NCBI RefSeq assembly: GCF_041345015.1
Contig: NZ_CP166769.1
Location: forward strand, 1,054,001 to 1,118,000
DNA: 64,000 nucleotides
DNA from: Bartonella sp. DGB1
GTDB lineage: Bacteria > Pseudomonadota > Alphaproteobacteria > Rhizobiales > Rhizobiaceae
Direction of reading: 5' to 3'
Every line of letters begins with the position of its first letter. Position 1 is the stretch's first letter. This document shows positions 8,353 to 10,952 of this stretch, piece after piece. The notes under the pieces are model-generated. The model saw only the letters and a list, made by a program, of their open reading frames with translations, made no database searches and had not been told where the DNA came from. The translations under genes were made by a program, and so were the position numbers.

Positions 8353-8853
8353 TTTTATTCCCTAGCTTAATTATTACCTTACTTTATTAAATATTACGTT
8401 ATGCAATATGGTCTTAGTAAATTATTATTGCTTTCTGTAAAAATTACAATATCTATAAGTAGATGACTGATTATATCTATTTACATCTATAAAACCAATT
8501 TGATAGCAAAAAAGACTATATTTAGCAACAGCCTTTAATTAAATTAATTATAATAACACCAATTATAGTTATATTCTCTTTACTAATTAATATAATAAAT
8601 CAACCACCGCAATATAATTTTATCTTAAATTATAAACTTTAAATCTAATCTTAACAAACGATCAATACAAAAAATATTTATTAAAAAATATAAATTTTTT
8701 AGTAGAACACAAAAGATAAACAATCATAAGATTGGTTAATAAAATTGAAATAATATTAACACCATAATATTATCTATCTGACATCATCCACTTTAATTTA
8801 ATATTACTTAATTCTATCACTAAAAATAACTTGTAAAAAAAGAAAAAATTAAT
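8353..8853. other. non-coding A+T-rich spacer between fabD and the rpsF promoter
   Basis: About 500 bp with no plausible coding frame on either strand and no similarity I recognise. It is very A+T-rich with scattered short palindromes. It must contain the fabD promoter (minus strand), but I cannot single one out among many A+T-rich candidates. It could be the remains of a lost gene. Confidence 0.6.
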
Positions 8854-8859
8854 TATAAG
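8831..8859 (+). promoter_or_regulatory. predicted sigma-70 type promoter of the rpsF operon
   Basis: TTGTAA at 8831-8836 and TATAAG at 8854-8859 are separated by exactly 17 nt. This places the expected transcript start near 8866, about ten bases before the structured leader at 8877. The spacing and position relative to that structure make it the best promoter candidate in the divergent region. Confidence 0.55.
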
Positions 8860-8876
8860 GAAACTTGTAATTAACC

Positions 8877-9035
8877 TATGTTCGGCTGGGGGCTGAACGG
8901 AGGCATGGAATATATTAATATTCTATGTTGAGCCTTGGCTCTATCCTTCCCGTGTCTCCGCTCTCGATCATATAGTTTTAGCGTCCTTTCTTCAGTTTTT
9001 CTAAGAGATGTCGCAGAGGCTTGGCGTCGAACATA
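8877..9035 (+). ncRNA. structured RNA leader upstream of rpsF (or a small RNA)
   Basis: This 159-nt block has 73 G+C (46% by my count), standing out from its A+T-rich surroundings. Pairings I can trace: outer stem 8877-8884 with 9028-9035 (8 bp, no mismatch); second stem 8891-8897 with 8991-8997 (includes two G-U); third stem 8898-8902 with 8956-8960; hairpin 8904-8913 with 8918-8927; hairpin 8930-8933 with 8938-8941. It ends 20 nt before the rpsF ATG and starts just after a predicted promoter. The likeliest role is an S6:S18 autoregulatory leader, known in principle for rpsF operons, but an independent small RNA is possible. It lacks hallmarks of SRP RNA, RNase P RNA and tmRNA. Confidence 0.6.
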
Positions 9036-9055
9036 CTTTTGAAGAAAGGCAAATT

Positions 9056-9487
9056 ATGGCTTTATATGAACATATAATCATGGCTCGCCAAGATTTATCT
9101 ACACAACAAGTTGAATCTATGATTCAACAATATAAAAATGTTATTGAATCAGAAGGTGGTAAAGTAACACGTGTAGAAAATTGGGGGCTTAGAACTCTAG
9201 CTTATCGAATCCAAAAAAATCGTAAAGCTCATTATGCTATGCTAAATATTGATGCACCAGCAACAGCTATTTTTGAACTTGAACGTCAGTTGCGAATCAA
9301 TGAAGATGTTATTCGTTTTCTTACTATCCGTGTAGAAAAACACGAAGAAGGAGCTTCTATCTTTATGTCTCGTCGTGAACGTGACGAATCTAATCAACAA
9401 GAAAATCGCAGTAATCATGCTAAATTAGATAATAAGTTAGATAAAAAGTTAGACGAATCTAATAAAGAGGAAAATAACAATGAATGA
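9056..9487 (+). CDS. rpsF: 30S ribosomal protein S6
   Basis: Binds the small-subunit platform with S18. The start at ATG 9056 is set by a GAAAGG ribosome-binding site and by the family N-terminus [15 protein letters not shown]. An upstream ATG at 9008 would run into the leader structure and is rejected. Core residues 1-100 are typical. The C-terminus carries a charged Lys/Asp/Asn/Glu-rich tail of about 40 residues, as in many alphaproteobacterial S6 proteins. It overlaps rpsR by 8 nt. Confidence 0.96.
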
Positions 9488-9731
9488 TACAGCTAGCTTG
9501 TCTTCCGTACGTCGTCCTTTTAGCCGCCGTCGTAAAAATTGCCCTTTTTTAGAAAAAGGCGCCGCTCCTATTGATTATAAAGATGTAAAATTATTGCAAC
9601 GTTATATTTCTGAACGCGGCAAAATAGTCCCGTCACGTATAACTGCAGTAAGTCAGAAAAAACAACGTGAACTAGCAAAAGCTATTAAGCGTGCTCGTTT
9701 CCTTGCTTTTTTACCTTATGTAGTAAAATAA
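9480..9731 (+). CDS. rpsR: 30S ribosomal protein S18
   Basis: Partner of S6 on the small-subunit platform. 83 residues, with the typical RRKNCPF segment, the [18 protein letters not shown] core and the ending [11 protein letters not shown]. It starts inside the rpsF 3' end, so the S6 and S18 messages are translationally coupled. The 141-nt spacer after it contains an imperfect hairpin. Confidence 0.98.
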
Positions 9732-9775
9732 TTAACTTAGGTTCATTATCTAAGATACTAAAATATTTGGTTGGG

Positions 9776-9833
9776 GTTGCATAAATAATTTAGATATAGA
9801 GATTTAATTCCTATAACTAGATTATTTCGCAAC
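9776..9833 (+). repeat. imperfect hairpin between rpsR and the DUF2232 gene
   Basis: GTTGC (9776-9780) pairs with GCAAC (9829-9833), and AAATAAT (9783-9789) with ATTATTT (9821-9827), with a 2-nt bulge on one side and one on the other. No clear T-run follows. It may lower read-through from the ribosomal genes into the membrane-protein gene (inference). Confidence 0.4.
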
Positions 9834-9872: not shown

Positions 9873-10952
9873 ATGACATTTAATTCCCGTATATTTTTTA
9901 TATCTATTTTCTTTGGCGTTCTAGCTGCTTTATTCTCTATATCGCCGCTTTTCGCCTTTTTATGTCCATTACCGATATTATATATATCTTTAAAATTTGG
10001 TAATTTTGCTAGCTTATTTGCAACCACAGTAACAGCAGCTATATTATCATTTTTATATCCAGGTGGAGAAACTAATTTTTTCCATTATTTATTAGTATAT
10101 ATTATACCCGCATTTTTAACTGGATACATGTTAAATATTTCCCGTAATAGCAATGATATAAAAAATAATAAATTTTTTAATTTATTATTTACATCATCTT
10201 CAGATAAAAGTAATATAAAGATAACTAATAAAACTTTAAAAGCAACGAATCAAGCTCAGAACAAGGTATTTTTAAGTATACCTCATCTGGTATTATCAGT
10301 TATAATAATTTTATTATTCAGTTATAGTTTATCTATTAAATTTCAATTTTATTCTCCAGCAATGGAGGCACAAATAACCAAATTATCTGAATTTATTTAT
10401 ATGGAACTTAAAGATAAACTGTTACTTTCAAAACAAATAGTTTTGGTAAAAGAGGATCTTTTAAATCTATATACTAAAGTCATTATTAATTTACTAACAA
10501 TTTTTATTGGAATATCGCTTTTCTTTAATATGATAATAAATCTATATTTAACACGCAATGTTGTTCCTAATCCTATCTCAGGTAGGGTATGGACGCCTTT
10601 AACTAAAAGTTTTCGTCTATCGTTATTCACCAAAATTATTTTATTAGTTACTCTTATTAGTATATTCACCATTTCAAACTTAAATATACAATTATTTTTA
10701 AATGTCTTTCTAGGCTTATTAATAGCTGCTACAATAGCAGCCGGTTTTGCCGTTATACATAATTTTTCGTCGCATAAAACATGGGGTAATAAACTCCTTT
10801 TAACGACTTATATTTGTTCAATTGGCTTTTTAGTAATGGGACAATTAGTTGCTTTTACCAATGTTTTTATTGCCGTCATGTTACAAATTATTAGCTTCAT
10901 TAGCTTTATGCTAATTTTTCTTATCGGAATTTTTGCAAAAACTGCAAAATAA
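9873..10952 (+). CDS. DUF2232 family integral membrane protein
   Basis: A 359-residue polytopic protein with about eight to nine predicted membrane spans (one cluster at 10-130, another from 140 to the end). Its position between rpsR and rplI is the usual one for DUF2232/YybS-like proteins in alphaproteobacteria. The middle of the protein has a polar, low-complexity Asn/Ser/Lys stretch (about 90-125). No catalytic motif is visible and the molecular function of the family is not established. The family call rests mainly on synteny and topology. AGGA lies 10-13 nt before the ATG. Confidence 0.75.
   Translation: MTFNSRIFFISIFFGVLAALFSISPLFAFLCPLPILYISLKFGNFASLFATTVTAAILSFLYPGGETNFFHYLLVYIIPAFLTGYMLNISRNSNDIKNNKFFNLLFTSSSDKSNIKITNKTLKATNQAQNKVFLSIPHLVLSVIIILLFSYSLSIKFQFYSPAMEAQITKLSEFIYMELKDKLLLSKQIVLVKEDLLNLYTKVIINLLTIFIGISLFFNMIINLYLTRNVVPNPISGRVWTPLTKSFRLSLFTKIILLVTLISIFTISNLNIQLFLNVFLGLLIAATIAAGFAVIHNFSSHKTWGNKLLLTTYICSIGFLVMGQLVAFTNVFIAVMLQIISFISFMLIFLIGIFAKTAK

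Follow-up and report, generated by a model that had tools for sequence, protein, structure and literature searches.

The locus lies in a 64,000-nt stretch of DNA (hereafter the window) and centers on rpsF and rpsR, which encode the ribosomal proteins S6 and S18 and overlap by 8 nt (Table 1). Pfam matches give the downstream proteins in the order S6, S18, one without a family, L9, and DnaB; the L9 (rplI) and DnaB genes, further 3', run in the same direction as rpsF. Between rpsR and rplI, positions 9873–10952 hold a 359-aa frame rich in hydrophobic stretches, for which no Pfam match was found at E ≤ 0.001. On the 5' side of the rpsF leader, a divergent block begins with an acyltransferase gene (Pfam Acyl_transf_1), which we take to be fabD. 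The longest rpsF reading frame begins 48 nt early, at an in-frame ATG at 9008, and automatic annotation may misplace the start owing to this codon. We set the start at 9056 because 9008 lies inside the leader and homologues begin at the 9056 codon, with MALYE-/MPLYE-like peptides.

Upstream of rpsF, the 159 nt from 8877 to 9035 are 45.9% G+C, versus 18.9% in 8400–8870. Across the 64 kb, only 0.2% of sliding 159-nt segments (step 10) are as G+C-rich, the median being 31%. The original prediction had described this block (46% G+C amid A+T-rich DNA), a perfect 8-bp stem closing it, an end 20 nt before the rpsF ATG, and a TTGTAA-N17-TATAAG promoter ahead of it, and each of these features is present in the sequence, with TATGTTCG and CGAACATA as the arms of the closing stem. 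The + strand of 8870–9042 folds at –52.7 kcal/mol (z = –2.71, matched by 1 of 200 shuffles), and the – strand of 8877–9035 gives z = –1.71 (matched by 10 of 200 shuffles). A generic promoter scan missed the promoter because the scan requires the –10 box to end in T, and 8400–9800 holds no more promoter-like sites than expected by chance (6 vs. 7.6 in shuffles). Among relatives, a TATANN box stands 5' of the conserved core in 101 of the 132 leaders having 60 nt of upstream sequence, and 101 of 106 TATANN occurrences fall at –28 to –39 from the core. Of the 54 genus-level leaders for which 75 nt of upstream sequence was available, 38 likewise have the box; by eye, it often follows CTTGC by ~17 nt. 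Transcription would be expected to start near 8866, giving a leader of about 190 nt. The functional structure extends past the 159-nt block, since the Shine-Dalgarno sequence pairs back into it.

Table 1. Features of the rpsF leader and operon (positions in the window).
Feature	Position	Strand	Basis
Sigma-70-type promoter, TTGTAA (8831–8836)-N17-TATAAG (8854–8859)	8831–8859	+	Sequence; TATANN similarly spaced in most relatives
P1 5' arm, pairs with 9028–9035	8877–8884	+	Perfect 8 bp; covariation; swap test z = –11.9
P2 5' strand, consensus YGGNGGC, pairs with 8954–8960	8887–8893	+	96.4% of cells paired, 51 sequences
UGA bulge, then AC pairing with 8952–8953	8894–8898	+	Near-invariant
P3 5' strand, pairs with 8946–8950	8899–8903	+	21 two-sided changes at one pair; helix score 212
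Hairpins P3a (about 8905–8926) and P3b (about 8930–8941)	8904–8945	+	Minimum-energy fold; variable between species
P3 3' strand, one-nt bulge (8951), then GU	8946–8953	+	51 core sequences
P2 3' strand, GUCUCCG	8954–8960	+	Core alignment
P4 5' strand, CUCUCGAU, pairs with 9010–9018, bulged base 9014	8961–8968	+	Covariation
P5 5' strand, internal anti-Shine-Dalgarno, CCUUUCUUCA	8985–8994	+	Ten uninterrupted Watson-Crick pairs with 9040–9049
P4 3' strand	9010–9018	+	Covariation; P4 pair table
Conserved junction, GGCUUNGC	9018–9025	+	Columns invariant or nearly so, 52 sequences
P1 3' arm	9028–9035	+	Perfect stem; covariation
Shine-Dalgarno, P5 3' strand, UGAAGAAAGG	9040–9049	+	Complementary to own-genome 16S 3' tail CCUUUCU
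rpsF (ribosomal protein S6)	9056–9487	+	Pfam Ribosomal_S6, E = 9.7e-33
rpsR (ribosomal protein S18)	9480–9731	+	Pfam Ribosomal_S18, E = 4.9e-25

The leader recurs in related genomes. S6 protein matches were obtained in 61 of 61 genomes, the window's own included, and the leader DNA blocks 8884–8903 and 8948–8967 were found in many of these (among the matches listed). We read the rpsF-upstream DNA in 59 relatives and the window, leaving out one genome (G038) at a contig edge, and built a covariance model of the core, R1 (90 positions, 14 pairs), from 51 of these 60 loci. R1 matches 58 of the 60 (its own genome and 57 of the 59 relatives), always at the rpsF leader, including seven of the nine loci outside its training set; the weakest of these matches (L009) scored 24.4 bits. 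A match was absent at L077 (G043) and L080 (G039). At L080, from a genome of 1.4 Mb, the place of the leader is taken by A+T-rich DNA alone, possibly a natural loss. L077 may keep the 3' half, because AGAGGCTTTGCGCC and the pair of CGCCTTTC and GAAAGGC can still be made out by eye.

In a search of 120 genomes of the phylum, R1 was found in 16 of the 17 belonging to the order (own included) and in none of the 103 others; the one missed genome of the order (G058) does give a match in a direct search of its leader (L074). Across the class, at least 10 of 289 genomes matched, including members of families f74 and f82, which both lie outside the order; the count is a lower bound because scoring was limited to 14 candidates per genome. 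Among 81 further alphaproteobacterial rpsF loci (80 genomes), R1 matched L103, from the same order, as well as L111 and L119. Among named genomes, a DNA pattern of the core occurs in at least 118 stretches, including those of Rhizobium, Sinorhizobium, Mesorhizobium, Phyllobacterium, Roseibium, and Aurantimonas; the stretches listed are presumably all from Hyphomicrobiales, or from metagenome-assembled genomes labelled only Alphaproteobacteria, Proteobacteria, or Pseudomonadota. The leader is not peculiar to the A+T-rich genome of the window but common to rhizobia and their relatives, and this distribution of the core model supports the earlier suggestion of a lineage-specific regulator. That so A+T-rich a genome has kept it indicates strong selection.

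Next, we asked how well the helices hold up in comparison. In the 51-sequence core alignment, 97.3% of the P2 and P3 cells are paired, against 93.5% in shuffles and 48–57% when the strands are slid by 1–3 columns, and 31 cells carry two-sided changes, against 8.5 in shuffles. Changes in P2 are mostly one-sided, with two-sided changes at one pair. For the entire leader, we arranged 134 sequences, the window included (124 distinct rows), in six ungapped blocks that together comprise 143 columns. The blocks were anchored on conserved motifs, the anti-Shine-Dalgarno and Shine-Dalgarno anchors were picked independently, and P3a and P3b lay outside them. This arrangement replaced a full MAFFT alignment (A1) because RNAalifold gave only 10 pairs there; the hairpins vary in length and pseudoknots are impossible for that method. 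We scanned every antiparallel 5-pair stretch within the blocks that paired in at least half of the cells. Clade effects dominated the scan as long as shared background was left uncorrected, and we therefore applied the average-product correction and a phylogeny-aware null of 20 alignments, in which the parsimony substitutions of each column were re-placed on the S6 protein tree.

Four helix regions scored above all 20 null alignments, whose maximum was 118.3: P1 (8880–8884/9028–9032, 216), P3 (8899–8903/8946–8950, 212), P4 (8965–8969/9009–9013, 189), and P5 (8991–8995/9039–9043, 151, reached by 0 of 20 nulls). The remaining entries above the null are neighboring registers of these four; P2 was not recovered by the 5-pair scan of the 134 leaders because it is too conserved. 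In a swap test, in which partners were exchanged among 58 genus-level leaders (2000 permutations), pairing was weakened both for the P1 arms (z = –11.9) and for the Shine-Dalgarno with its internal complement (z = –4.7), with none of the permutations reaching either value. For the control pairs, z was +1.6 (S5:D) and –2.0 (S5:F, 49 of 2000), the second of which shows some shared-ancestry signal in this test; the pair D:S3 (z = –3.1, 4 of 2000) was left aside because S3 includes the Shine-Dalgarno sequence. As in other r-leaders, the 5' untranslated region of this ribosomal protein operon is structured and its helices covary. The covariation for which the original prediction had proposed to look in relatives is present, and compensatory changes in the helices bear out the selection on RNA structure that it had assumed. 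They also contradict the view that the block is a conserved DNA element or a chance G+C-rich island with no function as RNA. Conservation of the core includes its sequence and not just its structure, as would be expected of a DNA element, but with compensatory changes and four helix regions above a phylogeny-aware null, this view has next to no chance of being right.

Of the four helices, P5 bears most directly on expression: it pairs the internal CCUUUCUUC with the rpsF Shine-Dalgarno sequence GAAGAAAGG, so that the structure overlaps an expression signal. P5 crosses P1 and P4 and therefore makes a pseudoknot, with the Shine-Dalgarno as its 3' strand. The Shine-Dalgarno core is nearly unvarying, and the P5 signal comes from the flank: among the 134 leaders, the 8991–9043 pair is U-A in 73 and C-G in 25, and the 8993–9041 pair is G-C in 44 and C-G in 34. 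No individual P5 pair reached significance when all pairs were searched (best E about 5), whereas the helix as a whole is. In its fixed register, P5 has at least six contiguous pairs in 121 of the 134 leaders and fewer in 13. We also sought the longest match between the sequence that follows the core and the 22 nt immediately 5' of rpsF at nine further loci that R1 had found in other genomes (L089–L097). Five (L089–L093) have 8–9 contiguous pairs over the Shine-Dalgarno, in letters mostly unlike those of the window (AGCTTCTC with GAGAAGCT, for example); in the other four (L094–L097), the longest stretch has 6 pairs or is not clearly a Shine-Dalgarno pairing. The anti-Shine-Dalgarno strand resembles the 16S 3' tail of its own genome, which ends CCTCCTTTCT. 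Calculated duplex energies are –14.8 kcal/mol for the Shine-Dalgarno with the internal strand and –7.9 kcal/mol with the 16S tail, and the closed form should therefore be able to compete with the 16S tail. Judged by comparison of genomes, the leader appears to be a Shine-Dalgarno-sequestering pseudoknot that can hide the ribosome-binding site.

The + strand of 8400–9800 has no intrinsic-terminator-like site, which favors translational control. Transcription attenuation, by which some ribosomal protein leaders in other bacteria work (PMC4538822), is for the same reason very improbable here. The missing terminator bears as well on the idea that the leader is released as a stable RNA of 110–190 nt that acts in trans. 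In Sinorhizobium meliloti, sra29 was estimated at 110 nt on Northern blots and called a 'probable leader for rpsF' (PMC2245857), and SmelC246, a 187-nt transcript of the type mRNA leader, is listed together with sra29 (PMC2873474). These RNAs are of the size that a released leader would have, but the covarying P5 helix ties the leader to the Shine-Dalgarno of the downstream gene, and the two papers themselves speak of a probable rpsF leader or 5' UTR and of an mRNA leader. An independent small RNA would be expected to have its own promoter and intrinsic terminator, and of these, the promoter box is present and the terminator-like site absent. We therefore regard release in trans as improbable, and the small-RNA option of the original prediction is the weaker of those it had offered. 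The passages on these RNAs report a transcript 5' of rpsF without a structure or mechanism. The sra29 table gives '-' for the other listed rhizobia and for Brucella; in our comparison, by contrast, conservation of the core is wide. Our 134 leaders include that of S. meliloti 4H41 (L199).

We then compared the leader with known RNAs. At the gathering score, the sole Rfam match of the whole window was a tRNA, with no 6S RNA or tmRNA. Within 8820–9100, the sole Rfam match at E up to 10 was to IMES-4 (14.8 bits vs. a cut-off of 48), which we rejected. RF02893 (RpsF_leader), whose membership cut-off of 37 bits the leader does not reach, gave no match in 8820–9100 at E up to 10 and none in the loci of eleven relatives at E up to 1, where one match to a cyanobacterial tmRNA model fell far under its cut-off. 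The same model scored 110.1 bits on E. coli and was found in 7 of 120 genomes of the phylum at E ≤ 0.001 (6 above the cut-off), all outside the class. The leader resembles RF02893 in lying upstream of rpsF and in holding the Shine-Dalgarno inside its structure. By contrast, the Shine-Dalgarno region of the E. coli RNA closes a simple nested fold, whereas here it pairs with the P4 loop in a pseudoknot.

The canonical S6:S18 motif has a stem containing the Shine-Dalgarno, a hairpin, and CC(G/A) in a 3' bulge between the two. A motif of this type, CUCCUU-GCCGGC...GCCGGCUA...CCA-UAAGGAG, occurs in Alphaproteobacteria and is like our leader in its gene, its class, and the pairing of the Shine-Dalgarno within the leader. 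We modeled it from 24 alphaproteobacterial leaders (R2, the CUCCUU-GCCGGC...AAGGAG motif). R2 matches 47 of the 81 further loci at E ≤ 0.1 and 39 at E ≤ 0.001, counts that include the 24 used to build it. It also matches, weakly (E 0.02–0.08), 5 of 7 gammaproteobacterial rpsF leaders, E. coli included, in overlap with RF02893 matches; the gammaproteobacterial label is established for E. coli and for the others follows from the RF02893 match. At the leader itself, R2 matched 0 of the 60 loci of the order, with one off-place match at E = 0.84. No locus matched both R1 and R2 at E ≤ 0.1, and 31 of the 81 matched neither. Canonical-looking leaders are common outside Hyphomicrobiales (L104–L129, L252–L293). 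Of the 24 that were aligned, 22 have CCA in the bulge and two have CCG, as is also found in the E. coli leader, and the 16S rRNA of the window organism reads CACCAGTGG at the equivalent place; leader bulge and rRNA may change together. A canonical-type S6:S18 motif thus seems to extend to the Alphaproteobacteria, with the Hyphomicrobiales leader standing in its place.

These searches matched no ordinary known RNA, and in failing both RF02893 and R2 the leader is, in line with the original prediction of a larger and possibly lineage-specific regulator, distinct from the compact S6:S18 motif. It looks like a different, structurally undescribed self-control switch for ribosome parts. We found no published structure for a Hyphomicrobiales rpsF leader in a literature search whose coverage mostly leaves out subscription journals. 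Eckert and Weinberg (2020) noted that an S6:S18 leader is conspicuously absent from Alphaproteobacteria and referred to promising motifs not then published (PMC7247131); this leader may well be among them.

Mimicry of an rRNA site is common, though not universal, among r-leaders, and on sequence identity to one strand we did not find it here: the best 10-mer identity between the leader and a 19-nt strand of the S18 site in its own 16S rRNA was 7, equalled by 176 and 199 of 200 shuffles. The likeness of CCNGUG in the leader to CCAGUG in its own 16S rRNA was not above chance and was dropped; GGAGGCUGAA in the leader is a candidate likeness to the E. coli leader, to which we give no weight. An S6:S18 r-leader candidate in Chlorobi is likewise lineage-specific and is described without evident rRNA mimicry (PMC7247131).

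We propose, with a probability of roughly 0.7, that the rpsF-rpsR leader is an autogenous translational repressor with a Shine-Dalgarno-blocking pseudoknot and that its ligand is S6:S18. The leader would adopt a three-way fold in which P1 encloses P2/P3 and P4. The loop of P4 would offer its anti-Shine-Dalgarno to the rpsF Shine-Dalgarno outside P1, and the resulting P5 would block binding of the 30S subunit. S6:S18 in excess of what 16S rRNA takes up would bind the conserved P2/P3 core and stabilize the closed form, shifting the balance so that translation of rpsF goes down and, with it, that of rpsR, which begins before rpsF ends. We infer the ligand from the identity of the gene, from the rule that established r-leader ligands recur (PMC7247131), and from E. 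coli, where S6:S18 is reported to repress rpsF translation through a leader that holds the putative Shine-Dalgarno (PMC4647458).

The same pseudoknot might instead answer to another ligand, be it S6 or S18 alone, L9, another protein, a small molecule, or temperature. The absence of detectable rRNA mimicry, the lack of a match to the canonical S6:S18 model, and the L9 and DnaB genes that follow in the same direction would all fit such a switch. However, the rpsF leaders of E. coli and B. subtilis bind S6:S18 and those of Chlorobi are predicted to (PMC4647458, PMC7247131), and the leader occupies the place of the canonical motif, with no locus matched by both models at E ≤ 0.1. We consider a different ligand unlikely, and S6:S18 remains our preferred reading.

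If S6:S18 is the ligand, an ancestor of the Hyphomicrobiales might have swapped the widespread S6:S18 leader for an unrelated RNA that answers to the same protein pair, has no copy of the rRNA site, and shuts off rpsF by a pseudoknot, the Shine-Dalgarno being captured by an internal CCUUUCU like that of the 16S 3' tail. We offer this replacement tentatively, at somewhat short of even odds. It would be a clean case of how one ribosomal protein regulator replaces another. This one leader, from an order with many plant symbionts, now has a proposed structure with its coordinates, a mapped distribution, and a pseudoknot that can be tested, and annotation pipelines could find it.

Upon a closer inspection of the core, we noted some variation among species. 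The bulged nucleotide at 8951 is C in 44, G in 5, and U in 2 of the 51 sequences. Insertions in the P3 domain stretch the core to 126–189 nt in L054, L074, and L075, with both conserved strands kept. In L025 and L030, the 3' strand has extra sequence inserted where P3 gives way to P2 (CCCTTGCGTC and CCCTTCCCGTC, vs. CNGUGUC elsewhere), possibly a variant core.
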